NCBI GenBank assembly: GCA_902571865.1
Contig: CACGDO010000005.1
Span: forward strand, 65,486 to 129,485
Reading direction: 5' to 3'
Length of the DNA: 64,000 nucleotides
Source of the DNA: an uncultured Alphaproteobacteria bacterium
GTDB lineage: Bacteria > Pseudomonadota > Alphaproteobacteria > HIMB59 > GCA-002718135
A program made the position numbers and the translations under genes. The number at the start of each line of letters is the position of its first letter. The stretch's first letter is position 1. The notes under the pieces are model-generated. The model was not told the origin of the DNA. It did no database searches and was given only the letters and a program-made list of their open reading frames with translations. Below are positions 15,921-37,589 of the stretch, in pieces.

Positions 15921-17783
15921 ATGACTAATCAAATTAATATATCTTTTACAAATGAAAATAAATTAAAAATTATTCTTGATGATAAATTAGTAGTTTCAAA
16001 TTTGAAACTGTGTTTCTCATTAGTTTATTCAATAAAATCTATATCAGGAGGTGAAATAACAAAGCAAATTGGGCGTTATTACGAGTTATCTATAAAAAAA
16101 AATACAATTTTATTAGATTTACAAATTCCTAAAATTGGTAACTTCAACCTTTCGTGTGGTCCGGAAGGTATTTTCATTATTGATACATTAAACAATAGTA
16201 AATTAAATATAAATGTTTCAGATTTGATATTTGAAAAACCAATTAAAAAGAAAACTTATGAAGATTTAAAAACAAAAAATTTTATACCTATTATACCTGA
16301 GCCAGAAAAAATTTATTTACAAAATGAATTTGTAAATATTGAAAATAAAACATTTAATCTAAATACGGAAATTGAAATTATTTCTAATTTGCAAAATATT
16401 ATTTACAAATTGGATATTAATTTTACTTCTGAAAAAGGATTTCCAATTTTTTTTAAAAAAGATGATCAGTTATTAAACGATCAATATTTTATGCAGATAA
16501 CAAAAGATAATATTGAGATTAAATACAATACTTATGGTGGAAAGCTATATGGTCTTATATCTTTAGTTCATTTAATTGATTTCTATCAAACAAAGCTTCC
16601 AATTTGTACAATTCACGATAATCCAAAATATCAATGGAGAGGAATGCATCTCGATTGTGCAAGACAATTCTATACTATTGATGAAATCAAACGTTTATTT
16701 AATTACATGGCATTATTTAAGCTTAATAGATTTCATTGGCATTTAACAGATAACGAAGCGTGGAGAATTGAAATTAAAAAATATCCAGATCTAGCATTAA
16801 ATGGGGGATACAGAGGATATAATTTTAAAATACCACCATTGTACGGAAGTGGTTATGAAAAATACGGCGGATATTACTCACAGGAAGATATCAAAGATTT
16901 AATTATATATGCAAAAAAATTAAATATCGAGATTATGCCTGAAATTGATTTACCAGCACATTCTTGGGCATTACTAGAAATCATGCCAGAACTTAGAGAA
17001 CAGTCTTCAAATATAGTTAGTGAAGATGTTGGTTCGTATAAGAATAATACTATAAATCCTTCCTTAGAAAAAACTGTAACTTTTTTAAAAGATATGTTGA
17101 ATGAAGTAAGTGATATTTTCTCATATGATGTAATTCATGTTGGCGTTGATGAAAGACCAAGTAATGCGTGGGAAGGTTCTCCGGCAATTATCGAGTTTAT
17201 GAAAAAAAATAATATTAAATCTCAAGAGGAATATCAAGATTACTATATGAATTTTTTAATAGATTTTCTAAAATCAAAAAATAAAAGAACAGCTGCATGG
17301 AATGAGGCAGCAGTGTCTCCTCATATCGATCATGGTGTGGGTGGAAGTGCTGGAAAAATTGATAAATCATGTTTGATCTTTTCATGGGAGCATTCAGATG
17401 TTGCAAAAGAAACTACAAATAAGGGATTTGAAACAATACTTTGTCCTGGTCAAAAAACATATTTTGATATGGCTTATAATAACTCAACTGAAGAGAGAGG
17501 TATTTGTTGGGCTGCAACTATAGAAGTAAAAGATATTTATGAGTGGGACCCAATAAAAGATTTAAATAAATCAGAATTGATAAAAGGGTTACAAGGTCAA
17601 CTGTGGTCAGAGACAATTACAGATAAAAAATTTTTTGATCAAATGATCAATCCAAGATTAGCAACTTTATCAGAAGTTGCATGGAGAGGAAAAATTTCAA
17701 GAAAATGGATAGAATTTCGTTCAGCACTTCTACATTCTATGGATTTTTTAAGAAAATTAGGCTGGCGATATCACAATTTTTAA
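15921..17783 (+). CDS. Beta-N-acetylhexosaminidase, GH20, no signal peptide
   Basis: Glycoside hydrolase family 20, 620 aa. An N-terminal beta-rich region (about 1-235) precedes the catalytic barrel, which opens at YQWRGMHLDCARQFY near residue 237 and continues with FHWHLTDNEAWRIEI and MPEIDLPAHS. The catalytic Asp-Glu pair is in HVGVDER at about residues 410-411. The C-terminal ETITDKKFFDQMINPRLATLSEVAW block is typical. The N terminus (MTNQINISFTNENK) shows no signal peptide, so it probably cleaves imported oligosaccharides inside the cell, releasing GlcNAc or GalNAc. It heads the run to an ABC importer, kinase, deacetylase and deaminase. Confidence 0.92.
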   Translation: MTNQINISFTNENKLKIILDDKLVVSNLKLCFSLVYSIKSISGGEITKQIGRYYELSIKKNTILLDLQIPKIGNFNLSCGPEGIFIIDTLNNSKLNINVSDLIFEKPIKKKTYEDLKTKNFIPIIPEPEKIYLQNEFVNIENKTFNLNTEIEIISNLQNIIYKLDINFTSEKGFPIFFKKDDQLLNDQYFMQITKDNIEIKYNTYGGKLYGLISLVHLIDFYQTKLPICTIHDNPKYQWRGMHLDCARQFYTIDEIKRLFNYMALFKLNRFHWHLTDNEAWRIEIKKYPDLALNGGYRGYNFKIPPLYGSGYEKYGGYYSQEDIKDLIIYAKKLNIEIMPEIDLPAHSWALLEIMPELREQSSNIVSEDVGSYKNNTINPSLEKTVTFLKDMLNEVSDIFSYDVIHVGVDERPSNAWEGSPAIIEFMKKNNIKSQEEYQDYYMNFLIDFLKSKNKRTAAWNEAAVSPHIDHGVGGSAGKIDKSCLIFSWEHSDVAKETTNKGFETILCPGQKTYFDMAYNNSTEERGICWAATIEVKDIYEWDPIKDLNKSELIKGLQGQLWSETITDKKFFDQMINPRLATLSEVAWRGKISRKWIEFRSALLHSMDFLRKLGWRYHNF

Positions 17784-17801: not shown

Positions 17802-18947
17802 ATGAAAATAGGCGCAGTCGGTTTTGGGAGTAGGACAGCAGGTGTTTATAATGAATTTTCAAAAGTTAATCCAAATTTTGAAATGGTTGCTTATGTAGAT
17901 CCTCAGCCAATAGGTAAAGATTTTGCTGAGAAAAATAATTTTTTTCCAAATAAATCATATTCAAGTTTAAACGAAATGTTGGATCGAGAGAAACTAGATA
18001 TGTTAATGATTGGGTCCCCCAATCATTTACATTTAGATCATATTAAGCTTGGATTAAGAGCAGGATTACAAATATTTGCTGAGAAACCTATAGTAATAAG
18101 CGAACAAGAAACTTTTGAGTTAGCAAAATTAATAAAAGAATATGGCAAAGAAAGAATTATTGTTGGCTTAGTTTTAAGATATTCACAGCAAGCAAGATCT
18201 GTGAGAAAATTATTAGATCAAAATGCTATTGGAAATATAATATCGATTGAAGCTTCAGAACATATCGTACCTTCGCACGGTGCTTTTTTTATGAGAAACT
18301 GGAGAAGAAAACAAAAATATTCTGGAGGCTTTATGCTGGAAAAATGTTGTCATGACATTGACTTTTATTCAATGATTACGAAGAGCAGACCTATTAAAGT
18401 TGCTAGTTTTGGTTCAAGAAGATCTTTTATACCCGAAAATCTTCCAGAGGGTTCTCATGAACAATATACAAAAGACAGACTGAAAGGTTGGGAGTCAAAA
18501 TCAAATGTTTTTGATAGTGATGCTGATATTGTCGATCATCAAGTAGCAATAATAGAATATGCAAATAAAGCAGTACTATCTTTTCATACTAATATGAAAG
18601 TTCCAGACGAATTTCGAAGATTTGCAGTCATAGGATCTGCGGGAATGATTGAGGGAGATTTTGTTAAAGGATTTATGAAAGCTCATGATGAAAATAATAA
18701 TGTACTTATTGATGAAGATTATGGAGCAGCTTTTGGAAAAGAAATTAAAGGTCATTATGGCGCAGATAGCATGATGGCTCAAGACATTAACAATTATTTA
18801 TTAAAAAATAATAAAGAATTACCAGTTGGTGTAGTAGAATGTATGGAGGCAGGAATTGTTGCTATGAAAATTGATGAAGCTAGAAATACTGGTAAAGTAA
18901 TTGACTTAACAAGCACTTGGGATAAATTCGACTCCCTATTAAATTAG
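17802..18947 (+). CDS. Gfo/Idh/MocA family oxidoreductase
   Basis: NAD(P)-dependent oxidoreductase, 381 aa. The Rossmann start is IGAVGFGSRTAGVYNEF, with AEKPIVISEQETFEL as the EKP motif and GGFMLEKCCHDIDFYSMIT carrying the catalytic His-Asp. It sits between the GH20 hexosaminidase (18-nt gap) and an ABC sugar permease (5-nt gap), so its substrate is probably a sugar or glycoside brought in by that importer. It could be an NAD-dependent glycosidase-type or keto-forming enzyme, but nothing in the sequence settles this. Confidence 0.83.
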   Translation: MKIGAVGFGSRTAGVYNEFSKVNPNFEMVAYVDPQPIGKDFAEKNNFFPNKSYSSLNEMLDREKLDMLMIGSPNHLHLDHIKLGLRAGLQIFAEKPIVISEQETFELAKLIKEYGKERIIVGLVLRYSQQARSVRKLLDQNAIGNIISIEASEHIVPSHGAFFMRNWRRKQKYSGGFMLEKCCHDIDFYSMITKSRPIKVASFGSRRSFIPENLPEGSHEQYTKDRLKGWESKSNVFDSDADIVDHQVAIIEYANKAVLSFHTNMKVPDEFRRFAVIGSAGMIEGDFVKGFMKAHDENNNVLIDEDYGAAFGKEIKGHYGADSMMAQDINNYLLKNNKELPVGVVECMEAGIVAMKIDEARNTGKVIDLTSTWDKFDSLLN

Positions 18948-18952
18948 TAATT

Positions 18953-19852
18953 ATGAATCAAAAATTAAAATCATATACCGCCCAAACATATATAGCATAT
19001 GCACTAATTGCTCCTGCTGCTATTTATATAATTCTTATTGTTGCTTGGCCATTATTAGAAACAATTAGATTATCTTTTACAAATTCTAGTTTAGCAGGAG
19101 AAGATTATGTTGGGTTAGAAAATTATCAAAAAATGTTTTCTAGTAAAAAATTTAATGGAATAGTGACCAGAACATTTGTTTGGATGTTTTTTTCAGTCTC
19201 TTTAAAACTTATCATTGGTTTAATTGGAGCTGTTTTACTTAATGCTAATTTAAAAGGAAGATCAATTTTCAGGGTACTTGTAATGCCTCCATGGGTAGTT
19301 CCAATTGCAATTGGTATGCTTGGCTGGTTATGGTTATATAACGGGTATTTTGGAATTATCGCAGGTGTAGGTATGCGAACTGGTATTTTGGACGGTCCTT
19401 TTGGATTTCTTGCTTACAAACAAAGTGCCTTTATTTCTACAATCATTGCCGATGTTTGGGTTGGAACACCAATGGTAACCGTTTTCTTTCTAGCTGCAAT
19501 GCAGGGTGTGCCAAGAGATTTATATGAAGCTGCTTATTGTGATGGCGCTTCAAGATGGGATAGATTTTTTAAAATTACATTACCTCAAATCACTCCAGTA
19601 ATTATTACAATGTCATTATTATCTGCTATTTGGACATTCAACTCATTTGAAATAATTTGGATATTGACTGAAGGTGGGCCAAGAGGTTCTACAACTACAT
19701 TAATTATCGACACCTATAAACAAGCATTAGGAAATTATAAATTTGGAAGAGGTGCTGCTAGAGCCGTAGTCGTAATGATTTTACTAATGTTATTTGCAGG
19801 ATTTTACTTAGCTTTACTTGCTAGAATTAATAAGAAAATTTCTCATGAATAA
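18953..19852 (+). CDS. ABC sugar permease, MalF/UgpA type
   Basis: Membrane subunit of a CUT1-family carbohydrate importer, 299 aa, with six predicted membrane segments (first at about residues 15-37). The EAA loop is YEAAYCDGASRWDRFFKITLPQITP near residue 198, the canonical ATPase-docking motif. It starts 5 nt after the Gfo/Idh gene, and its 3' end overlaps the next permease by 8 nt. Its partners would be one or both of the duplicated MalG-like permeases, the binding protein at 21601 and an ATPase encoded elsewhere. Substrate inferred to be an amino-sugar oligosaccharide from neighbours. Confidence 0.9.
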   Translation: MNQKLKSYTAQTYIAYALIAPAAIYIILIVAWPLLETIRLSFTNSSLAGEDYVGLENYQKMFSSKKFNGIVTRTFVWMFFSVSLKLIIGLIGAVLLNANLKGRSIFRVLVMPPWVVPIAIGMLGWLWLYNGYFGIIAGVGMRTGILDGPFGFLAYKQSAFISTIIADVWVGTPMVTVFFLAAMQGVPRDLYEAAYCDGASRWDRFFKITLPQITPVIITMSLLSAIWTFNSFEIIWILTEGGPRGSTTTLIIDTYKQALGNYKFGRGAARAVVVMILLMLFAGFYLALLARINKKISHE

Positions 19853-20684
19853 ATATAATCCTTTTGAAAAAATATTGATCTATTTTGGCATCTTTGTCTT
19901 CATGACTTTTATTCTTTTGCCTTTTATTGAAATGTTTTATGCATCGCTTCGTCCCTTAGATCATTTATTTAGATCTCCATACCAATTTTATTCAGATGAT
20001 TTATCTTTTTGGGCTTATCAAGAAATGTGGAATACGGTACCAATGCTAGGAAGATATATCTTTAATAGTTTTTTTCTGGCTTCCTGCGTTGCTATACTAA
20101 CTCTTATATTTGTTATTCCTGCAGCTTACGCATACGCACGTTTTAAATTTCCAGCTAAGAATACGAGCTTATACATACTCTTAGCAATTAATATGTTTTC
20201 AGGAGCAGTAATTTTAATACCTTTATACAAATTGTTAAGGACTTTAGGTTTATTAAATAGTTATCAATCTATGATAATTCCTGGTGTTGCTTTTTTAATA
20301 CCAACTGCAATTTGGTTGCTAAAATCTTACTTTGAGAAAATACCAATAGATTTAGAAGAGGCAGCTTTTGTTGACGGGGCTTCAAGAGTACAAATACTCA
20401 GACATATCATAGCTCCTTTAAGTACACCTGGCTTAGTTGTAGTTGGTATTTATGCATTCATAGGCGCATATGCTCAACAATTCTTATTTGCGATTACATT
20501 TAATCAGAAAAAAGAATACATGCCAATTCCAACAGGGTTATATGAATTTATAGGATATCAAAGCGTTAAATGGAATGAAATGATGGCAGCAGCCTTAGTA
20601 GGGATGTTGCCTGTTTTATTATTATTTGTATTTTTACAAAAGTATATTGTAGAGGGGCTTACTGCTGGTGCGGTAAAAAACTAA
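19845..20684 (+). CDS. ABC sugar permease, MalG type, copy 1 of tandem pair
   Basis: MalG/UgpE-type membrane subunit, 279 aa. The track starts at TTG 19818, but ATG 19845 gives an 8-nt overlap with the previous gene and exactly the same length and N terminus (MNKYN) as the next gene, so I use it. The EAA loop is LEEAAFVDGASRVQILRHIIAPLSTPG, and the C-terminal GLTAGAVKN is typical of CUT1 permeases. It is about 87% identical by hand count to the following gene. Having two MalG-type genes beside one MalF-type gene is unusual; each may pair with the same MalF subunit. Confidence 0.9.
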   Translation: MNKYNPFEKILIYFGIFVFMTFILLPFIEMFYASLRPLDHLFRSPYQFYSDDLSFWAYQEMWNTVPMLGRYIFNSFFLASCVAILTLIFVIPAAYAYARFKFPAKNTSLYILLAINMFSGAVILIPLYKLLRTLGLLNSYQSMIIPGVAFLIPTAIWLLKSYFEKIPIDLEEAAFVDGASRVQILRHIIAPLSTPGLVVVGIYAFIGAYAQQFLFAITFNQKKEYMPIPTGLYEFIGYQSVKWNEMMAAALVGMLPVLLLFVFLQKYIVEGLTAGAVKN

Positions 20685-20685
20685 A

Positions 20686-21525
20686 TTGGATAAATATAAT
20701 ATATACGAAAAGATATTATTATATTCAGGAATACTAGTCTTTATGATTTTTATTCTTTTGCCTTTTGTCGAAATGTTTTATGCATCGCTTCGACCTTTAG
20801 ATCATTTATTTAGATCTCCTTATCAATTTTATTCAGATGATTTATCTTTTTGGGCTTATCGAGAAATGTGGAATACAGTACCAATGCTTCCACGATATAT
20901 TTTTAACAGTTTTTTTCTTGCCTCAGTAACTTCTATAATTACTTTGCTTTTTGTAATTCCAGCAGCTTACTCTTACGCACGTTTTAAATTTCCTTTTAAA
21001 AATTCTTCACTCTATATTTTATTAGCAATTAATATGTTTTCAGGCGCAGTTTTATTAATACCTCTTTATAAAGTATTAAGAACATTTGGTTTGCTAAATA
21101 CGTATCAAGCTATGATAGTTCCTGGTGTTGCTTTTTTAATACCAACTGCAATTTGGCTGCTAAAGTCTTACTTTGAAAAAATACCAATAGATTTAGAGGA
21201 GGCGGCTTTTGTTGACGGGGCTTCAAGAGTACAAATACTCAGACATATCATAGCTCCTCTTAGTACGCCCGGTCTGGTAGTTGTTGGGATATATGCTTTT
21301 ATAGGATCTTACGCTCAACAATTCTTATTTGCGATCACATTTAACCAGAAAAAAGAATATATGCCTATCCCTTCGGGACTTTATGAATTTATAGGATACA
21401 CAACAGTCAAATGGAATGAAATGATGGCAGCTTCTCTTGTTGGGATAGCACCTGTCTTAATTATTTTTCTTTTTTTACAGAAATATATCGTTGCTGGATT
21501 GACTTCCGGGGCAGTAAAAAACTAG
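20686..21525 (+). CDS. ABC sugar permease, MalG type, copy 2 of tandem pair
   Basis: Near-duplicate of the preceding permease, 279 aa, starting at TTG 20686 one base after its stop. No ATG is available, and MDKYN aligns with the MNKYN start of copy 1, supporting the TTG. The middle of the protein, from IPGVAFLIPTAIW through the EAA loop, is almost unchanged. Differences gather in membrane segment 1, segment 2 and the last segment. A 54-nt stretch is identical to copy 1 at the same offset, while flanking codons differ at synonymous sites, which hints at gene conversion. It is followed after 75 nt by the binding-protein gene. Confidence 0.88.
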   Translation: MDKYNIYEKILLYSGILVFMIFILLPFVEMFYASLRPLDHLFRSPYQFYSDDLSFWAYREMWNTVPMLPRYIFNSFFLASVTSIITLLFVIPAAYSYARFKFPFKNSSLYILLAINMFSGAVLLIPLYKVLRTFGLLNTYQAMIVPGVAFLIPTAIWLLKSYFEKIPIDLEEAAFVDGASRVQILRHIIAPLSTPGLVVVGIYAFIGSYAQQFLFAITFNQKKEYMPIPSGLYEFIGYTTVKWNEMMAASLVGIAPVLIIFLFLQKYIVAGLTSGAVKN

Positions 21526-21600
21526 AGAAATATCCAAAAACTAACTTGCTTCATAGAGCCTGTTAATGTTATCTCTTTTCTATATTTAAATGGAGGAAAT

Positions 21601-22812
21601 ATGACTTTCAAAAAACTATCTTCATTTCTTACAATAGCTATACTTTCACTAGTTGGTTTTAAAACTTATGCTGCTGAAGTACACGGAGTATTCTGTGGCG
21701 GTGAGCTTCGACCAAACTATGTTGAAATAGCTGATAAGTACATGGAAGACAATCCTGGAGTTACTGTAACTCTAGAAGCTGTTCCCTGGGGAACATGTCA
21801 GGATAAAGTAATCAATCTTGCAATTGCAGGTGATCCCGTTGCATTTTCATATGTTGGATCAAGAACTCTAAAAGGTCTTGCAGAAAACGGACATATTTTA
21901 GAAACAAATATTCCTGCTTCACAAAAAGCAATGTATCAACCAGGTATCCTAAACACAGTTACACACATGGGTAAAACTTGGGGCTTCCCTCATGCATTTT
22001 CAACTAAAGCTCTTTTCATGAATTGTGGTCTTTTAGAAAAAGCAGGCGTTGCATGTGAAGGTCCTCAAAGTTGGGATGAATTATACTCAATGGCTGAAGC
22101 TGTAACAAAAAATGTTGATGGAGCGGCAGGAATTGGACTAGCTGGTAAAGATTTTGATAATACTATGCACCAATTCTTAAACTACCTATACAGTAATGGG
22201 GGACAAGTTATTGATCCAATGACAAACGAAATAACTTTAAATTCATCTAATACTGTTGAAACATTAGAGTTTTATGGAAAGTTAGCAAACGTTGCTCAGG
22301 AAGGTCCTTTAGCTTGGGAGAGATCTCAGTTAACAGAACTATTTAATGACGAAAAAATTGCTATGTATATTAATGGACCTTGGGGTAGAGGTCAGCATAA
22401 GGAAGGTCTAGATGTTAAAACAGTTAGAATTCCAGCTGGACCACAAGGAAGCCAAGGTACACTTTTAATTACTGATAGTGTTGCAGTTTTCTCAAACACA
22501 GGTGTTGAAAAAGAAGCAATGGAATTAGCTAGCATAATCACATCAGGTGATTCTCAATACAGTCTTGATACTGATTGGGGTTTAACACCAATTATGCAAT
22601 ATCCTCAAATTGGAAATGAAGCTCCATACAATGAAGATTATTGGATGATGTTTATTGATTCTATTGGCGATGGTGGACCAGAGCCACTATTTGTAGACTA
22701 CAAAGCTTTTCAAACTGTTATGAACTCTATGATCCAAGGCGCAATTCTTGGTGAAGGAGATGCTGCAGATTTAGTAGCTGAAGCTGCTGAAGAGCTAGAA
22801 GAATACAAATAA
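21601..22812 (+). CDS. ABC sugar-binding protein, extracellular solute-binding family 1
   Basis: Periplasmic binding protein of a CUT1 importer, 403 aa. The signal peptide spans about residues 1-24 (MTFKKLSSFLTIAILSLVGF, then TYAAEV with an A-x-A-like site). The mature part starts with EVHGVFCGGELRPNYVEIADKYM, and hinge motifs such as MYINGPWGRGQHK and DSVAVFSNTGVEKEAMEL are typical of family 1. A strong Shine-Dalgarno (GGAGG) lies 5-6 nt before ATG. The 75-nt gap upstream, unlike the tight gaps before it, suggests its own promoter or mRNA processing. A perfect hairpin follows the stop codon. It probably binds the glycan handled by the GH20 enzyme. Confidence 0.9.
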   Translation: MTFKKLSSFLTIAILSLVGFKTYAAEVHGVFCGGELRPNYVEIADKYMEDNPGVTVTLEAVPWGTCQDKVINLAIAGDPVAFSYVGSRTLKGLAENGHILETNIPASQKAMYQPGILNTVTHMGKTWGFPHAFSTKALFMNCGLLEKAGVACEGPQSWDELYSMAEAVTKNVDGAAGIGLAGKDFDNTMHQFLNYLYSNGGQVIDPMTNEITLNSSNTVETLEFYGKLANVAQEGPLAWERSQLTELFNDEKIAMYINGPWGRGQHKEGLDVKTVRIPAGPQGSQGTLLITDSVAVFSNTGVEKEAMELASIITSGDSQYSLDTDWGLTPIMQYPQIGNEAPYNEDYWMMFIDSIGDGGPEPLFVDYKAFQTVMNSMIQGAILGEGDAADLVAEAAEELEEYK

Positions 22813-22823
22813 TCATAATTTAT

Positions 22824-22848
22824 TACTGGGGCAAACATTGCCCCAGTA
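22824..22848 (+). promoter_or_regulatory. Intercistronic hairpin after binding-protein gene
   Basis: Perfect 11-bp inverted repeat TACTGGGGCAA / TTGCCCCAGTA with a 3-nt loop, 11 nt after the binding-protein stop. It is not followed by a T run, so it is more likely an mRNA 3'-end protector or partial attenuator than a full terminator. Similar hairpins follow all other binding-protein genes here. Confidence 0.75.
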
Positions 22849-22864
22849 CTCAGTAAAAATTCAA

Positions 22865-23593
22865 ATGAGTAAATTAACAAGATCTTATTCCTCAAAAATT
22901 AATTCTATTTTAAAGAAGATTTTAAAAGAAGAAGAAAAAAAATTCTTACAGTGTGCTAAGTTAATTAGTAAATCATATAAAAAGGGTGGGCAGTTATATA
23001 TTTTTGGAACTGGACACTCTAGATTACTTGGAGAAGAGTCATTTCACAGAGCAGGAGGTTTTGCTGCAGCATGCCCAATAAGAGATGATGATCTTAGTTT
23101 TAAAAAAGGAGCACGAAAAGCTACGGCTTTAGAAAGAACTCCAAATATTGCAAAAAAAGCTCTAGCTAAATATAAAATTACTAGCAAAGATATTTTGATG
23201 ATTGTATCTAATTCAGGTGTGAATCACGCACCAGTTGAAGCAGCTTTGATTGCTAAGAAAAAGAAAATAAAAACTATTTCACTAACATCTGTAAAGTATT
23301 CTAAACAGGCTCCTTTATCTAAATTGAATAAACGATTATTTGAAATAACAGATATATTCATTGATAATAAAATTCCACCTGGTGATGCGATTATTAATAT
23401 TAAAGATAATATGGTTGGTCCAGCTTCAACAATCACAGGATCTTTTATTTTAAATTCAATTTTAATTGAAGTTGCCAATATATTAAAAAATGAAAAAGTA
23501 TTTCCATTCTACATCAGTGTAAATATGCCAAATGCTAAAAAAAATAACGATAAATTAGAAAAAAAATTTAGTAAGATTAATCCTCATTTATAA
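22865..23593 (+). CDS. SIS-domain sugar-phosphate isomerase-like protein
   Basis: SIS-fold protein, 242 aa from ATG 22865. The track start (TTG 22838) lies inside the hairpin loop and arm and is unlikely. Sugar-phosphate binding motifs are IFGTGHSRLLGEE near residue 50 and the serine-rich IVSNSGVNHAPVEAA near 122, as in the UPF0309/YckX-like group of SIS proteins. It follows the binding-protein gene and precedes a ROK kinase, so it should act on a phosphorylated amino sugar or on a sugar etherase or epimerase step. It differs from the second SIS protein at 25648, which is the more likely deaminase. Confidence 0.75.
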   Translation: MSKLTRSYSSKINSILKKILKEEEKKFLQCAKLISKSYKKGGQLYIFGTGHSRLLGEESFHRAGGFAAACPIRDDDLSFKKGARKATALERTPNIAKKALAKYKITSKDILMIVSNSGVNHAPVEAALIAKKKKIKTISLTSVKYSKQAPLSKLNKRLFEITDIFIDNKIPPGDAIINIKDNMVGPASTITGSFILNSILIEVANILKNEKVFPFYISVNMPNAKKNNDKLEKKFSKINPHL

Positions 23594-23662
23594 AATAACG
23601 AAATATATTTAAGAAAAAAAATTGATATATAAAAAGTTTAACAACTAACTAAATATTTTTAG

Positions 23663-24556
23663 ATGAAAATTATTAAAAAATATATTGTAACTATAGATTT
23701 AGGTGGAACTAAAACAAATATTGGCTTTTTTAGAAATGGAAAATTAGTTCAAAATACTAAACTCCTGACACAAAAATATGGCCCTGATAATATTGATATA
23801 ATTTCTGAAATTTTGATTAATTCAAAAAAAAATATTTCTTCAATTTGTCTGTCACTTACTGGTTTAGTTACCAGTAAAGGCTTATGGAATCCTATTAATA
23901 AGAAAGTACTTGGGAATTTTAAAAATTACCCAGTAGTTAAAGTTTTAAAAAAAAGATTTAGTATTCCAGTTTATGCACTAGGCGATACCCAAGCAGCTGC
24001 TTTGGGAGAAATGCATTATGGTAATGGTAAAAATTTGCAAAATTTCTTTTACTTAACAGTATCCACTGGAATAGGAGGTAGTATCATTTATAATCAAAAT
24101 CTATTTGATAACAAAATATCAGATATTGGGTCTATTGGTCATAATGTGATAAAATATAATGGAAAACTTTGTGGTTGTGGTAAAAAGGGGTGTTTAGAAG
24201 CGTATTCATCAGGGACTGCTCTAATCAAGCAGAACAAAATTAAAAAATGTTATAATACGAGAGATCTTTTAACAAAATATAAAAACAATTTGCAAACAAA
24301 AAGAATAGTAAATGAGGCTACATCAATGATTGCTCAAAGTATTTTGAATATTAATTTATTGCTTAGAATTAATTTTTTTATTATTGGGGGGAGTGTTGGT
24401 CTTAATCCATTTTTTTATAATTCGATAAAAAATAATTTAACAAAATCTATACCTCCAGTAAAAATTCAAAAAGCTAAATTAAAATCTAAAGCTGAATTAT
24501 ATGGATGTTTTATATACATACATAAAAAACTTTTTTTAAAGAAATCTAATATTTAA
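23663..24556 (+). CDS. ROK-family sugar kinase, probable N-acetylglucosamine kinase
   Basis: ROK kinase, 297 aa. The ATP phosphate-1 motif VTIDLGGTKTNIGFF lies at the N terminus, the SLTGLVTSKGLWNP and ALGDTQAAALGEMHYG regions follow, and VSTGIGGSIIYN is the phosphate-2 motif. The zinc-binding segment CGCGKKGCLEAYSSG is intact, preceded by SIGHNVIKY holding the substrate His. It lies directly before nagA (7 nt). It would phosphorylate imported GlcNAc (or ManNAc) at C6, feeding NagA. A 69-nt gap upstream shows no clear promoter. Confidence 0.85.
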   Translation: MKIIKKYIVTIDLGGTKTNIGFFRNGKLVQNTKLLTQKYGPDNIDIISEILINSKKNISSICLSLTGLVTSKGLWNPINKKVLGNFKNYPVVKVLKKRFSIPVYALGDTQAAALGEMHYGNGKNLQNFFYLTVSTGIGGSIIYNQNLFDNKISDIGSIGHNVIKYNGKLCGCGKKGCLEAYSSGTALIKQNKIKKCYNTRDLLTKYKNNLQTKRIVNEATSMIAQSILNINLLLRINFFIIGGSVGLNPFFYNSIKNNLTKSIPPVKIQKAKLKSKAELYGCFIYIHKKLFLKKSNI

Positions 24557-24563
24557 TTCATTA

Positions 24564-25655
24564 ATGAATAATAAAAATAAAATTACTGGTAAGATAATAA
24601 ATCATAACTCATCTTTTATAGGTGAAATTTATTTTGATGAAAATATTATTGATATAAAAAAAAATAAATCTGATGATTTTGAAAACATCATAGTGCCTGG
24701 CTTCATTGATCTGCATTGCCATGGTGGGAATGGTTTTGATATTATGGAAGGATCAAGCTCAATAGTAGAAATGTCAAAATACCATTTAAAACATGGAACT
24801 ACATCAATTATGCCAACCACTTGGACCAATACACTAGAAAATACTATTTCTGCTTTAGAAAATTTTAATAATATAAAAAGTGATAATCCACATATTCTGG
24901 GTGTTCATTTAGAGGGTCCTTTTATTAATCCAAAAAAACTTGGTGCACAGCCCAACTTAACACAAATGCCATCTTTAGAATTTATCAATAAAATTATTGA
25001 GGTTGCTGATGTTAAAATTATGACATTAGCTCCAGAAGTTGATGGGATGCAAAAATTTATAAATGACTTAGTAAGTCTAAATATTAAGGTTCAATTTGGT
25101 CACACTTTAGCAGATTTTACTTGCTGTGAAAAAATTATGAAAGATTATGAAATAGGTTTTACACACCTTTATAATGCTATGTCTGGAAATGATCACAGAT
25201 CCCCAGGAGTATTATCAGCTGCTCTTTCAAAGGGAAATTTTGCTGAAATAATTTGTGATAATATCCATGTAAGTAAACAGGCAATAAAAATAGCGCATAA
25301 ATGCATTTCTGGTTTATATGCAATTACTGATTCAATTAGTGCTAGCGGCCTAAATGATGGAGAATATAATTTTGCCAACAATAAAATTAAAAAAGAAAAA
25401 AATTCAGTTAAAATTATATCTGATGGAACTTTAGCAGGTAGTATTGTAACTATGGATCAAACTTTTAAAAATTTAATATCAATGGACTTTTCATTAGAAG
25501 AAGCAGTAAGTTTAACAAGTTACAATGCATCAAGATATCTTGAATTGAATAATGTTGGTGTAATCGATAAAAATTATATTAGCAATTTCGTGGTCTTAGA
25601 TAAAAAATTCAACCTTAAAGAAGTATATTTAAATGGGAAAAAAATTGATGCCTAA
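24564..25655 (+). CDS. nagA: N-acetylglucosamine-6-phosphate deacetylase
   Basis: Amidohydrolase-superfamily NagA, 363 aa. The HxH-type motif reads IVPGFIDLHCHGGNGFDIMEG near residue 45. The metal-ligand Glu is in LGVHLEGPFINPKKLGAQP, His residues in VQFGHTLADF and FTHLYNAMSG, and the catalytic Asp in YAITDSISASG. It removes acetate from GlcNAc-6-P to give glucosamine-6-P in the cytoplasm. It overlaps the downstream SIS-deaminase gene, so the ROK-NagA-SIS genes are translationally linked. Clear family match. Confidence 0.93.
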   Translation: MNNKNKITGKIINHNSSFIGEIYFDENIIDIKKNKSDDFENIIVPGFIDLHCHGGNGFDIMEGSSSIVEMSKYHLKHGTTSIMPTTWTNTLENTISALENFNNIKSDNPHILGVHLEGPFINPKKLGAQPNLTQMPSLEFINKIIEVADVKIMTLAPEVDGMQKFINDLVSLNIKVQFGHTLADFTCCEKIMKDYEIGFTHLYNAMSGNDHRSPGVLSAALSKGNFAEIICDNIHVSKQAIKIAHKCISGLYAITDSISASGLNDGEYNFANNKIKKEKNSVKIISDGTLAGSIVTMDQTFKNLISMDFSLEEAVSLTSYNASRYLELNNVGVIDKNYISNFVVLDKKFNLKEVYLNGKKIDA

Positions 25656-26670
25656 TTCACTTGTTTTATCTGAAGCATTATCAATACCAGAAAAAATAAA
25701 TAAATTTATTTTAAATGATAACAATAAATATCAAGAAATATCAAATTTAATATCATTAAAAAAAATTGATTATGTAGTAACTGTGGCAAGAGGTACTTCA
25801 GATTGTGCTGCTCTTTATTTATCTTATATGTTTGCAAAATATTTAGGCTTACCAACATACAGCATGCCTCCATCTATTATAACTTTAGAAGAATCAAAAT
25901 TTGATTTTTCTAGAGCATTAGTTTTCATTATTTCTCAATCTGGAAAAAGTGAAGATTTAGTTGAATGTCATAAAATGGTACAAAAAATGGGAGCAAAGAC
26001 GATATTAATAAGTAATAATTTAAATAGCCCTATTATAAAAACATCCAATTATTTTTTTGATATAAATGCTGGGGAAGAAAAAAGTGTTGCAGCAACAAAA
26101 ACTTTTGTCTTGTCTTTATTGATAATTTTAAAACTTGTTTTTAACACTCTTAATAAAAAAGATATTAATAAACATATTGAAAAACTAAGTGATCATTTAA
26201 TTTTGGATAATCAAAATCAATGGAATCCAAATATATTAGATAAAACTATAAGTAATGGATATATAATTAGTAGGGGTGTTGGATATGCAATTTCTAATGA
26301 AATATCTCTAAAGTTTAAAGAATTATGTCAAGAAATGATAGAACCTTTTAGTAGTGCTGAGGTAATGCATGGACCGAAAAGCCTTATAGAAAACTCATTT
26401 AAGTTATTTACTTTATCGCTTAGAGATAAAAGTGGGATGATAGTGGCAAAAGATTCTACTCAAATTATCTCACTAACTAATCTTCACTATGAAATTACCT
26501 ATGATGAAAAATCGAATACAAAATTTAAATATAACACTAGTGAAATGATAGAGTTAGATCCAATAATAGTACTATCAAAATTTTATCCATGGATAATTAA
26601 TTACTCATTTGAAAAAGGATTAAACCCAGATAATCCTAGATATTTAACTAAAGTAACACAAACATTCTAA
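25648..26670 (+). CDS. SIS-domain glucosamine-6-phosphate deaminase/isomerase-like (NagB-II type)
   Basis: Double SIS-domain protein, 340 aa, resembling the isomerase half of GlmS without the glutaminase domain. The N terminus is SLVLSEALSIPEKI, the first sugar-phosphate site TVARGTSDCAALYL then ISQSGKSEDLVECHKM, the SVAATKTFVLSL block follows, and the second domain has GVGYAISNEISLKFKELCQEMIEPFSSAEVMHGP. The track starts at ATG 25633, but ATG 25648 (8-nt overlap with nagA) better matches the family N terminus. It would convert glucosamine-6-P to fructose-6-P and ammonia, replacing the unrelated NagB. It completes the amino-sugar route. Confidence 0.86.
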   Translation: MPNSLVLSEALSIPEKINKFILNDNNKYQEISNLISLKKIDYVVTVARGTSDCAALYLSYMFAKYLGLPTYSMPPSIITLEESKFDFSRALVFIISQSGKSEDLVECHKMVQKMGAKTILISNNLNSPIIKTSNYFFDINAGEEKSVAATKTFVLSLLIILKLVFNTLNKKDINKHIEKLSDHLILDNQNQWNPNILDKTISNGYIISRGVGYAISNEISLKFKELCQEMIEPFSSAEVMHGPKSLIENSFKLFTLSLRDKSGMIVAKDSTQIISLTNLHYEITYDEKSNTKFKYNTSEMIELDPIIVLSKFYPWIINYSFEKGLNPDNPRYLTKVTQTF

Positions 26671-33345: not shown

Positions 33346-34425
33346 TTATTTAAATGCTTGTCCTGAACTGTCAAATAACTGGCATCTTCCAGCAGGAAAA
33401 CCAACTTTTACAGTATCACCAACTTTAATTTCTGAATGTCCTTCAGTTTCAGCAACTAATGGCTCTCCATCTTTTTCAAGGTATAGGTAAGTAACGTCAC
33501 CAAGTTTTTCCACAACAAATACTTTACTCTCCCAAGATCCATCTGCATCACCATTTACTACTAAGTGTTCAGGTCTAATACCTAGAGTTACTGAATCACC
33601 CTCTGAGGAGGATGCTGACATTTTAGAGACTGATATTTTTGACATTCCCATAATATCAACTTCTGTAGCATCAGAACTTTTGCTTAATATCTTACTTGAA
33701 ATAAAGTTCATTTTTGGTGAACCAATAAATCCACCTACGAACATATTATTTGGTCTATCATAAAGTTCTAATGGGGATCCTTTTTGTGAAACGATACCTG
33801 TATCTAGAACAACAATATCGTCAGCTAAAGTCATAGCTTCTGTCTGATCATGTGTAACATAGATCATTGTTGCTTCTAGTTCATTATGAAGTTTTGCTAA
33901 TTCAACTCTCATTTGAACCCTTAATGCAGCATCAAGGTTTGAAAGCGGTTCATCAAATAAGAAAACTTTTGGTTTTCTTGTAATTGCTCTTCCAATAGCA
34001 ACACGTTGTCTTTGACCACCTGAAAGTTGTTTTGGTTTTCTTTGAAGATAATCTTCTATTTGAAGAATTCTTGCTGCCTCATTAACTCTTTCATTAATCT
34101 CATCTTTTGATCTTTTTTCTAATTTCAAACCAAAAGCCATGTTATCAAATACAGTCATGTGAGGGTATAATGCATAAGATTGAAATACCATTGCAATATT
34201 TCTTTGCTTTGGTGGTAAATCATTAACTACCTGACCATCAATTGAAATTGTACCTGAATTAATATCTTCAAGTCCTGCTATCATTCTTAACATAGTTGAT
34301 TTTCCACAACCACTAGGTCCAACTAGAACTGTGAACGATTGACTTTTGATATCTAGGGATACATCCTTAATTACATGGACGTCTCCAAAATATTTGTTAA
34401 CAGTATTTATATTTATATCTGCCAC
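33346..34425 (-). CDS. ABC transporter ATPase, MalK/UgpC type
   Basis: ATP-binding subunit of a CUT1 sugar importer, 359 aa from GTG 34425. The track start (TTG 34452) places the strong Shine-Dalgarno AAAGGAGG inside the gene; GTG 34425 lies 5 nt after it and matches the family N terminus MADININTVNKYFG. Walker A is GPSGCGKST, the Q-loop MVFQSYALYPH, the signature LSGGQRQRVAIGRAI, Walker B VFLFDEPLSNLDA and the H-loop YVTHDQ. A C-terminal TOBE-like domain (about 235-359) is present. It is the only MalK-type ATPase in the window, so it may energise more than one importer. Confidence 0.93.
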   Translation of the reverse strand: MADININTVNKYFGDVHVIKDVSLDIKSQSFTVLVGPSGCGKSTMLRMIAGLEDINSGTISIDGQVVNDLPPKQRNIAMVFQSYALYPHMTVFDNMAFGLKLEKRSKDEINERVNEAARILQIEDYLQRKPKQLSGGQRQRVAIGRAITRKPKVFLFDEPLSNLDAALRVQMRVELAKLHNELEATMIYVTHDQTEAMTLADDIVVLDTGIVSQKGSPLELYDRPNNMFVGGFIGSPKMNFISSKILSKSSDATEVDIMGMSKISVSKMSASSSEGDSVTLGIRPEHLVVNGDADGSWESKVFVVEKLGDVTYLYLEKDGEPLVAETEGHSEIKVGDTVKVGFPAGRCQLFDSSGQAFK

Positions 34426-34453
34426 TTCATCCTCCTTTGAGCGATCTTTCAAG

Positions 34454-34474
34454 TGTATGAAAACTCATCATACA
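34454..34474 (-). promoter_or_regulatory. Inverted repeat upstream of the MalK-type gene
   Basis: TGTATGA and TCATACA form perfect 7-bp arms around a 7-nt spacer, 29 nt upstream of GTG 34425, in the 104-nt gap between the permease and ATPase genes. It may be an operator or a weak intercistronic hairpin. Chance cannot be excluded. Confidence 0.35.
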
Positions 34475-34529
34475 AATATAAAAGCATTTAACGATAATTT
34501 AATATAAAAATCAATAGCTAAAAGGTTTT

Positions 34530-35354
34530 TTATCCTTTTACCGCACCAGCTGTAAGTCCTTTAACAATTCTATTTTGGAAAATTAATACCACAATTAAAA
34601 CAGGTATAGTAACAAGAACCGAAGCTGCCATAATATTTGGCCATGGAATTTCAAATTCACTTTCTCCTCGAAAACTAGCCATGAATACGGGAAGGGTTGT
34701 AACCTCTGGTGATATTGTTAATGTTAATGCAAATAAGAATTCATTCCATGCTCCTATAAAAGCTAATATTCCTGTTGTTACCATTGCTGGCCACATTAAA
34801 GGTAAAAAAACTTTAAATAAAATCACGTAAGAATTTGCGCCATCAACCATTGCTGCTTCTTCAATTTCAATAGGTAAATCTCTTATGAATGCAGTCAATA
34901 TCCATACAGTGAATGGTAAAGAAAAAACAACATAAGACATTATAAGACCTTGATATGTATTATAAACACCAAGACTTCTTACTAATTCAAACATTCCTGA
35001 TAATATTGCTACTTGAGGGAACATTGATGTGCCTAGAATTCCAAGGAGTAAAACTGTCCTCCCTTTAAATTGAATTCTTCCTAAAGCATAAGAAGCTGTC
35101 AATGCAATTAGAAGACAAAATAAAACAGTTAATGTTGAGACTAAAAATGAGTTAAAAAATGTGGAACCAAATGCTGGTCTATTAAGAACATAAATAAAAT
35201 TTTTAAGAACAGGTTCACTAGGCCAATATTCTACAATAAAAGTCCCCGTACCAGCTTTTTTTAATGCCGATACGATTGCCCAATAAAAAGGAAAGCATGT
35301 ATAAACTAAAATTATTAACAATAAGAATACCAGAGATATTTTTTTCCAACTCAT
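34530..35354 (-). CDS. ABC sugar permease, MalG type
   Basis: CUT1 importer membrane subunit, 274 aa, six hydrophobic segments, first at about residues 6-28. The EAA loop is IEEAAMVDGANSYVILFKVFLPLMWPA near residue 166, then GAWNEFLFALTL, and the C terminus ends GLTAGAVKG, as in typical MalG-like proteins. Its ATG overlaps the stop of the upstream MalF-type gene (TAATG), so translation is coupled. Its partners are the MalF-type subunit at 35354, binding protein at 36321 and the ATPase at 33346. Confidence 0.92.
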   Translation of the reverse strand: MSWKKISLVFLLLIILVYTCFPFYWAIVSALKKAGTGTFIVEYWPSEPVLKNFIYVLNRPAFGSTFFNSFLVSTLTVLFCLLIALTASYALGRIQFKGRTVLLLGILGTSMFPQVAILSGMFELVRSLGVYNTYQGLIMSYVVFSLPFTVWILTAFIRDLPIEIEEAAMVDGANSYVILFKVFLPLMWPAMVTTGILAFIGAWNEFLFALTLTISPEVTTLPVFMASFRGESEFEIPWPNIMAASVLVTIPVLIVVLIFQNRIVKGLTAGAVKG

Positions 35355-36265
35355 TAATAAACTCCCTGTCTATCAAAACTTGTTTTCGTGATAATTAAGT
35401 AAAGAATTGTGGCAATCGTCAAAAATGCAAACAATAGAGTTGATGCAGCAGATCCTTGTCCTACTTCCATGAAATCAACTAACCATTGTCTGGCGTATAC
35501 GGACATTGAAGCTGTTTCTCTAGAATTTGTAGTGAGTACATATAATAGATCAAAGACTCTCAAAGCATCTAATGTTCTAAATATAATTGCTATAACTAAA
35601 GTTGGTTTAATTAATGGTAAAGTGATATTCCAAAATACTTTCCATGAACTAACACCATCAATTCTTGTTGATTCGTAAATATCTGTTGGGATCATTTGCA
35701 AAGCTGCTAAGGTTAATAATGTTATAAAGGGAGTAGTTTTCCATACGTCTACAATAATAGCAGCTGCCATAGAGCTATCTGGATAAGCTAAAAAAGCTAT
35801 AGGTTCTGAGATTATGCTTAAGTCCATTAAAATTTCATTAAAAACACCAAATTGTTGATTAAACATCCATTGAAACATTTTTGCATTAACAATTGTTGGT
35901 ATTGCCCAAGGTATTAAAATTGCAGCCCTTACAATACCTCTTGCTGGCATATTGTTATTTAAAATTAGAGCAAAGGTGACACCAATTATGGTTTCAAAAA
36001 AAACAGAAAAAAAAGAAAAGATAAAAGTATTTTTAACTGAAACCCACCACCACTCATCATAAAAAAACAGAGTTTCGTAATGAAACCATCCAACATAATT
36101 ATAATTATATAAATCTCCTAATCTAGCATCTGTAAAACTATAATTTATTGTTGTTATAAGAGGGTATATGGCAACGACTGCAAGACAGATAAACATGGGT
36201 GTTAAAAATATCCATGCGGATCTAATTCTTTCTTTTGAAAGTTTTGTTCTTTGAATTTTTGCCAT
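35354..36265 (-). CDS. ABC sugar permease, MalF type
   Basis: CUT1 importer membrane subunit, 303 aa. A basic N terminus (AKIQRTKLSKERIRSAW) precedes membrane segment 1. The EAA loop is YESTRIDGVSSWKVFWNITLPLIKPT near residue 208, with Ser in place of the usual second Ala. It starts 56 nt after the binding-protein gene, behind a GC-rich hairpin and a 16-bp AT palindrome. No Shine-Dalgarno is visible before ATG 36265, so translation initiation may depend on the upstream structure. Confidence 0.92.
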   Translation of the reverse strand: MAKIQRTKLSKERIRSAWIFLTPMFICLAVVAIYPLITTINYSFTDARLGDLYNYNYVGWFHYETLFFYDEWWWVSVKNTFIFSFFSVFFETIIGVTFALILNNNMPARGIVRAAILIPWAIPTIVNAKMFQWMFNQQFGVFNEILMDLSIISEPIAFLAYPDSSMAAAIIVDVWKTTPFITLLTLAALQMIPTDIYESTRIDGVSSWKVFWNITLPLIKPTLVIAIIFRTLDALRVFDLLYVLTTNSRETASMSVYARQWLVDFMEVGQGSAASTLLFAFLTIATILYLIITKTSFDRQGVY

Positions 36266-36269
36266 ATGA

Positions 36270-36308
36270 TAATCTAATTAGATTACTGGCGCATTAAGCG
36301 CCAGTAAT
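36270..36308 (-). promoter_or_regulatory. Intercistronic hairpin plus adjoining 16-bp palindrome
   Basis: Between the binding-protein stop and the MalF-type start there is a perfect 11-bp stem ATTACTGGCGC/GCGCCAGTAAT with a 5-nt loop (36282-36308). Overlapping its arm by 4 nt is a perfect palindrome TAATCTAATTAGATTA (36270-36285). No T run follows on the minus strand. The first should protect the binding-protein mRNA 3' end; the second covers where the permease ribosome site should be. Confidence 0.65.
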
Positions 36309-36320
36309 AAAAATATATAA

Positions 36321-37589
36321 TTAGAACTTTCTAGACAGTGCTTTTAAGTCCTTTTCCATTGCAGCAGCTGCATCTTCAGCACTTTTTGAACCAGTTAATA
36401 CTGAATGTACTTCATTAAAGAATACGTTACTAACTTGTCCATAATACTTATGAGATACAGTTGATGGTCTCGCAACAGCGTTATTAAATGTATCAAATAG
36501 CATACCAAAGAAAGGGTTTGCTGCTTTTACATCTAGGTCATCATATAACACAGGTCTTGTTGGAAGATTTGAAGTATCAATTGCTTTAGTCTTCATAACT
36601 TCAACACTTGTCATGTGTTTAATTAAATCAGCTGCAATTTCTGGGTTCTTAGAATTTTTATTCACCATTAATTGCCAGCCTCCTAATGCACCAGTCATTT
36701 TTCCATCTGATCCACCACCAGGTAGTGCCATAGCTCCAACTTTATCTTTGATTGGACTATCATCAGCTTGTGAACGACTCCATGCATATGGCCAGTTTCT
36801 CATAAACACTGCATTACCAGTTTGCCATACACCTCTTGCATCTTCTTCTTTGTAAGTAACAACATCTTCAGGAGAAATTGTTCCTACCCAAGAAGCAGCA
36901 GTTTTAAGTGCAGCAATGGCATTTGGATTATTTATTGAAACCGTACCGTCTGCTTCAATGATATTTCCACCACCAAATGAGTTTACCCATTCAATACCAT
37001 CACAAGTTAAACCTTCGTAAGCAGCACCTTGCCATACAAAACCTTGCATTTTAGCATTTCCTGCAGCTCTTTCTTTGTCTTGAATGAACTGAGCAGTTTC
37101 TGCTAATTCACTCCATGTTGAAGGCGGGCTTTTGCCATATTTATCAAGTAAGTCTGTTCTGTAGTATAAAAGACCTGCATCCGTGAAATAAGGAACAGCA
37201 ACATATTTACCACCAACAGTGTTATTACCTACAATACCTTCAAAGAAATCTGCTTTGTGAGCATCATCAAAAATATTATTTAAATCATATGCACAATCAG
37301 CAAAAATTCCTGGCCAAATAACATCAATCATAAAAATATCGATATCACTTGATCCTGAACTACAAATTTGTTGATACAAATTTAGAGTATCAGTTGCACT
37401 AGCTGGTCTGTAAACATAACCAATTTCGTGACCATTTTCTTCAGCCCAATCAAGAGCAAATCTATAATGCTCTCTCATAGCTCTTTCGTCATCGCCACCC
37501 ATTGTAATGGTAATTTTTGCAGCAAAAACGTTGAATGACATCATTAATGCAACAAAAAAAGTAGCGATTAATTTTAGAGATAATTTCAT
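36321..37589 (-). CDS. ABC sugar-binding protein, extracellular solute-binding family 1
   Basis: Periplasmic binding protein, 422 aa. The signal peptide MKLSLKLIATFFVALMMSFNVFA is followed by AKITITMGGDDERAMREHY at the mature start. Family-1 hallmarks include DIFMIDVIWPGIFADCAYDL, VPYFTDAGLLYYRTDLLDKYG, VFMRNWPYAWS and GALGGWQLMVNKNSKNPEIAADLIKHM. This sequence style is found with trehalose/maltose/sugar-alcohol importers. A strong AGGAGGAAAT Shine-Dalgarno precedes the ATG, and an operator-like palindrome lies 23 nt upstream. It is the first gene of its operon, followed by MalF, MalG and MalK types. Confidence 0.92.
   Translation of the reverse strand: MKLSLKLIATFFVALMMSFNVFAAKITITMGGDDERAMREHYRFALDWAEENGHEIGYVYRPASATDTLNLYQQICSSGSSDIDIFMIDVIWPGIFADCAYDLNNIFDDAHKADFFEGIVGNNTVGGKYVAVPYFTDAGLLYYRTDLLDKYGKSPPSTWSELAETAQFIQDKERAAGNAKMQGFVWQGAAYEGLTCDGIEWVNSFGGGNIIEADGTVSINNPNAIAALKTAASWVGTISPEDVVTYKEEDARGVWQTGNAVFMRNWPYAWSRSQADDSPIKDKVGAMALPGGGSDGKMTGALGGWQLMVNKNSKNPEIAADLIKHMTSVEVMKTKAIDTSNLPTRPVLYDDLDVKAANPFFGMLFDTFNNAVARPSTVSHKYYGQVSNVFFNEVHSVLTGSKSAEDAAAAMEKDLKALSRKF

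Follow-up and report, generated by a model that had tools for sequence, protein, structure and literature searches.

Tandem MalG-type permease genes in a HIMB59/AEGEAN-169 bacterium appear to evolve in concert while staying different at a few sites

Gene duplications are described as few in streamlined oceanic bacteria, and a genome of this kind that carries two closely similar permease genes side by side raises the question of what keeps them both. The pair lies in a stretch of 64,000 nucleotides (contig CACGDO010000005.1, hereafter the window) from an uncultured alphaproteobacterium placed in the HIMB59/AEGEAN-169 order. Copy 1 (19845-20684, plus strand) opens with an ATG that overlaps the stop codon of a MalF-like permease gene, and copy 2 (20686-21525, plus strand) opens with a TTG. 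Each is an open frame of 840 nucleotides (279 amino acids), and the single spacer base between the stop of the first and the start of the second (20685, plus strand) forms a conserved joint of the duplication. In the window the copies are identical at 86.8% of amino acids and 81.5% of nucleotides, which bears out the earlier note's description of an equal-length tandem pair, about 87% identical in protein and one base apart.

Both copies belong to the BPD_transp_1 family (PF00528; 4.4e-13 and 49.8 bits for copy 1, 7.5e-13 and 49.1 bits for copy 2, against a Pfam gathering cut-off of 26.4) and share an identical EAA coupling motif, EEAAFVDGAS, which aligns with 'leeaa.dga' of 2r6g_G. By sequence, their nearest solved structures are SugB (7cad_B) and MalG (2r6g_G), and copy 1 is homologous to both; the alignment spans the full length with SugB and residues 68-278 with MalG. 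Scores of 122.3 and 114.9 bits against the MalG equivalog NF008231 fall short of the curated cut-off of 261, so that the safe designation is "MalG-type".

A scan of species genomes from the HIMB59/AEGEAN-169 order, many of them single-cell assemblies, yielded 77 related loci. The pair is present in 49, complete in 42 of them and cut by contig ends or otherwise incomplete in 7; the remaining loci comprise three with one chimeric copy, six with one diverged copy, 14 with a single-copy alternative cassette and five that cannot be judged. Together with the window, the relatives provide 43 complete pairs, and the one-nucleotide gap and the ATG and TTG starts occur in 43 of 43, a count that overstates independence because the pairs are related to each other. 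The earlier note had allowed for single-copy relatives and an assembly duplication in the window, and the opposite was found: presence of the pair in most relatives with the same junction indicates that the duplication is old and kept, and not an assembly error. The three chimeric genes (L077, L082, L085) are crossovers that join the start of copy 1 to the end of copy 2, with break points near nucleotides 696-710, at about 550 and at 27-204, respectively, and they leave everything else at the locus intact. As these and the other single-copy states exist, two copies are not essential for the function; they are favoured, yet dispensable.

Both copies are under strong purifying selection, with dN/dS values of 0.02-0.03 within copy 1 and within copy 2 in three lineages. 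Decay of one copy is rejected on these values, and a frameshift was seen only in copy 1 of a single locus (L070:6223-7059), where one extra nucleotide within a run of T after codon 255 throws the gene out of frame; this could be a sequencing error or an early pseudogene. The proposal that a streamlined genome had retained a duplicate thus agrees with two intact, constrained copies that recur across the order.

How the copies have stayed so similar is less evident from the window than from its relatives. The earlier note had pointed to a 54-nucleotide exact match at the same offset in both copies as a patch of gene conversion. The match is present (20364-20417 in copy 1 and 21205-21258 in copy 2, both plus strand, at a constant spacing of 841) and is the longest exact run between them. 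It exceeds the expectation from codon shuffling (mean 31, P=0.007), also when shuffling is restricted to codons with a conserved amino acid (P=0.02). A silent-site run test on the window pair alone is not significant (P=0.51), and the match was therefore dropped as stand-alone proof of conversion; in the window genome by itself, a conversion patch is only suggestive.

Among the relatives, gene conversion is clear. Clustered silent-site identity goes beyond chance: silent-run permutation gives P<0.05 in 28 of the 43 pairs, and 16 of the 43 pass Bonferroni correction. Exact tracts extend over 706 nucleotides in L081, 253 in L062 and 239 in L078, and the L081 copies are homogenised throughout from nucleotide 5 to 710. 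Within a genome the two copies differ by a dS of about 0.85, compared with 2.4 and 1.6 for the same copies between two groups of loci, X (L073-L081) and Y (which includes the window), and in part of the gene paralogues within a genome are closer than orthologues between lineages. The conversion claim thereby stands for the relatives and is weakened for the window's own match, and what the pairs show is diverged segments alternating with homogenised ones rather than a single patch. Ectopic homologous recombination between the copies would keep homogenising codons of about 21-60 and 141-220, and incoming DNA from other cells may also serve as a conversion donor.

The segments that have stayed different are few and recurrent. 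Only at positions 1 (the start codon), 239, 240 and 274 do the copies carry different residues in every one of the 43 pairs, and at positions 69, 81-83, 139, 260 and 262 they do so in 39 or more of the 43. Between-copy dN/dS is 0.12-0.13 in these islands and 0.02-0.03 in the core. Silent divergence, expressed relative to that of orthologues between X and Y, reaches about 1.0 at codons 76-90 and 226-240 and is 0.3-0.4 in homogenised parts. It tracks amino-acid difference (Spearman 0.77, P=1e-4), so that sliding-window synonymous divergence, a check that the earlier note had proposed, returns peaks where the amino acids differ. Peaks of this kind at functional sites are expected when selection blocks conversion, and they have been described for the human red and green opsins (Teshima and Innan model, reviewed in PMC3924837), in which homogenised stretches likewise alternate with silent-divergence peaks at few amino-acid differences. 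Unlike the opsins, the permeases are bacterial tandem genes in one operon that recurrently collapse to chimeric single genes, and their functional difference is a putative one. Codons 76-90 and 136-150 are internal peaks with homogenised DNA on both sides, and repeat ends can therefore not explain them, whereas for codons 1-20 and 241-279 low exchange near the repeat ends could account for the lasting difference with no selection involved. Selection is well supported as the probable cause of the islands.

The doublet at positions 239-240 is Gln-Ser in copy 1 (CAA AGC, 20559-20564, plus strand) and Thr-Thr in copy 2 (ACA ACA, 21400-21405, plus strand) in 43 of 43 pairs. Five of its six nucleotides differ in the window pair, and it is conserved across lineages whose silent sites are near saturation. 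Among the 43 pairs no exact tract of at least 60 nucleotides crosses these codons: the doublet begins at nucleotide 715, and the long tracts of L081 and L078 end at nucleotides 710 and 707, so that L081 keeps QS and TT despite homogenisation up to that point. The residues align with positions 256-257 of E. coli MalG, in the loop before the last helix, which we take to be the P3/scoop loop region. The scoop loop of MalG participates in handing sugar over from the binding protein in the maltose importer (PMC8134467). An AlphaFold model of copy 1 is too weak to use (mean pLDDT 53), although its secondary structure sets residues 237-243 between two helices; it is by sequence alignment that the doublet is predicted to lie in a loop facing the binding protein. 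Together, the positions kept different (239-240, 274, 69, 81-83 and 139) are as indicative of the binding-protein interface and of helix packing as of a substrate site.

An alternative is that the copies share one function and persist for dosage or neutrally, with conversion slowing their divergence and the islands marking places where conversion starts or resolves poorly, such as repeat ends and local clusters of mismatches. Several loci work with one copy, including the otherwise intact chimeric collapses, and two of the islands do sit at repeat ends. What makes this account unlikely is that homogenised DNA surrounds the internal islands (codons 76-90 and 136-150), that a doublet differing at five of six nucleotides has been conserved over such silent distances, and that L081 has retained it next to an otherwise fully homogenised stretch. 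It is instead reasonably probable that two permease variants are kept distinct by selection, probably as alternative partners of MalF. Alternative MalF-MalG heterodimers, as the earlier note had envisaged, are a plausible form of this reading, and the retained differences suggest that the copies may do different jobs.

The age of the pair is obscured by conversion. A whole-gene tree mixes the copies, with copies 1 and 2 of group X clustering together and apart from group Y, and X and Y nevertheless have the copy-specific residues and the junction in common; splitting the gene into segments resolves this conflict. For codons 21-60 and 141-220, orthology of copies 1 and 2 across lineages is rejected (delta lnL 188, AU 5e-41). 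For codons 61-140, separate X and Y clades are rejected (delta lnL 48, AU 0.0125) and the split into copy 1 and copy 2 is accepted (AU 0.11). The N- and C-terminal segments prefer the same split without significance (AU 0.60, versus 0.24 for the concerted tree). The phylogeny with relatives that the earlier note had called for hence indicates one old duplication, which would predate the split of the lineages examined. Separate tandem duplications in X and Y would account for the whole-gene tree and for the segments that fit separate clades, but not for codons 61-140, for a one-nucleotide junction and TTG start that are identical in both groups, or for the shared 69P, 81-83, 139T, 239-240TT and 274S, and they are very improbable.

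If the copies differ in function, their partners are of interest. The gene partners of the pair are a MalF-type permease (18953-19852, plus strand; PF00528, 7.7e-19) and a solute-binding protein (21601-22812, plus strand; PF01547, 8.3e-29) with only generic SBP_bac matches. In the 92% complete assembly, no other MalF-like paralogue above 33% identity and no further close MalG paralogue beyond the pair was found, and the next solute-binding proteins are only 19-31% identical and match partially. The idea of a separate close MalF or binding-protein partner for each copy thus finds no candidate in this assembly. With one MalF-like gene and one close binding-protein gene, a change of substrate, such as the wider or switched range that the earlier note had envisaged, would need to come from MalG alone.

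The surrounding genes suggest what is imported. A GH20 beta-N-acetylhexosaminidase (15921-17783, plus strand; PF00728, 4.5e-98), NagA (24564-25655, plus strand; TIGR00221, 243 bits, above cut-off) and a NagB-II-like SIS deaminase, presumptively acting on glucosamine-6-phosphate (25633-26670, plus strand; NF046059, 231 bits, below cut-off), lie near the transporter; the cluster further includes a Gfo/Idh oxidoreductase, a SIS protein, a ROK kinase and a GMC oxidoreductase. This composition points to utilisation of GlcNAc or chitin oligosaccharides, and the neighbours favour GlcNAc oligosaccharides, not maltose, as the predicted substrate. The earlier "MalG" label accordingly holds for fold and subfamily, and it does not extend to the equivalog or to maltose. 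The ROK-family kinase gene (23663-24556), between the SIS gene and nagA, was not seen there in the related loci, and only 3 of 100 relatives have a close homologue. Compared with its nearest relatives, the window shows just 77-83% identity in NagA, despite flanks at 92-99%.

No ATPase gene was found in the cluster. The nearest MalK-type ATPase gene (33346-34452, minus strand) stands beside another transporter, in a second carbohydrate ABC transporter locus with its own MalK-type ATPase (33346-37589), and this ATPase is a candidate energy source for the GlcNAc-type importer. Relative to MalG and SugB (PF00528; 2r6g_G, 7cad_B), the copies thus agree in length, EAA motif, C-terminal region and place after a MalF-like gene, and differ in forming two adjacent copies with one MalF-like gene, in the sub-equivalog score and in the cluster without an ATPase gene. 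If no ATPase gene belongs to the cluster, parts must be shared with other systems, and elsewhere the genome holds about 18 MalG-like permeases as well as MalK-type ATPases; one could therefore imagine that an importer free of MalF, or one built from MalG1 and MalG2, is evolving, or that the channel is coming to be shared with another transporter of the genome. This is extremely improbable given a MalF-like gene that is intact, overlaps copy 1 translationally and is more conserved than the MalG copies (dS 0.19, dN/dS 0.016).

The comparison of loci further indicates that the transporter is swapped as a block by homologous recombination. L097-L107 and L114 have flanks nearly identical to those of the window (in L107, GalK 97%, GH20 95% and GMC 99% of amino acids), but their MalF is only 71%, their single MalG 77% and their binding protein 74-75% identical. 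Conversely, in L048, L056 and L062 the flanks are 57-66% identical for most genes, yet the window's cassette is found at 94-99%. The Gfo/Idh/MocA oxidoreductase gene upstream (17802-18947, plus strand; PF01408/PF02894) moves with the cassette in L048, L056, L060 and L062. In the window, the block of Gfo/Idh, MalF, MalG and binding protein corresponds to 17802-22812, and the amino-acid identity of the one-copy allele is 71-77%. A second segment, 20686-26670, resembles an imported block. Measured against L040, L047 and L053, the synonymous difference climbs from 0.01-0.11 upstream to 0.17-0.35 over the second MalG gene, SIS, NagA and NagB, with 0.08-0.10 in the binding protein, and falls again to 0.02-0.05 in the GMC gene. 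Five loci (L048, L076, L080, L081, L084) carry, in place of the SIS-domain gene that follows the binding protein, a diverged version (44-46% of amino acids) in the opposite orientation. In L095, the region of the pair runs into inverted sequence that carries NagB, NagA, SIS and the binding protein, probably as an amplification (MDA) chimera.

That the second copy or its patches arose from MDA chimeras or misassembly is scarcely credible, even though nearly all assemblies derive from amplified single cells and short reads, L095 resembles such a chimera and several contigs end inside the pair, because the pair occurs in dozens of separate single-cell assemblies and one MAG (L080) with lineage-specific sequence in both copies, and because contig breaks within it are an expected effect of long identical tracts; some individual tracts or collapses could be artefacts.

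Related behaviour has been described in the same clade. Flexible genomic islands for phosphate and phosphonate in HIMB59/AEGEAN-169 are exchanged by homologous recombination (PMC10734472), and there, too, alternative versions of a transport locus occupy one chromosomal position without following phylogeny. Here a sugar-importer cassette is exchanged, and it holds either one copy of MalG or two; the text of PMC10734472 does not mention chitobiose, N-acetylglucosamine or chitin. Duplicated proteorhodopsins of AEGEAN-169 (PMC10308909) provide a parallel for paralogues kept for different tuning in this streamlined clade; those copies can be quite divergent, and gene conversion is not described in the part of that report drawn on here. 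Among the literature covered, no paper on MalG tandem pairs with gene conversion was found. Judged by their sequences, the MalG-type genes are duplicates that evolve in concert and retain their difference at a few sites.

The data are best explained by a model in which selection against exchange would hold the copies apart at the N-terminal helix, at positions 69, 81-83, 139 and 239-240, and along the last helix to 274. MalF would pair with either copy to yield two importer versions with a shared binding protein and ATPase, and these may differ in docking or release of the binding protein or in helix packing, with effects on affinity, rate or sugar chain length. Copy 2, whose TTG directly follows the stop of copy 1, would probably depend on translational coupling for its synthesis and may be made in smaller amounts. 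In its fullest form the model is a tentative one: MalG paralogues may alternate on a single MalF and a single binding protein, so that there would be two importers distinguished by the scoop loop, with that difference protected by selection amid homogenisation and with one- and two-copy alleles exchanged between species as ecological variants.

Taken together, the pair constitutes a natural experiment that picks out the few permease residues that the copies cannot share, including a doublet predicted to face the binding protein. If the copies do form two importers, this would be a simple way of broadening the uptake of sugars derived from chitin with a single binding protein. Since one- and two-copy cassettes are exchanged between species, the ecology of the pair furthermore becomes testable with metagenomes.
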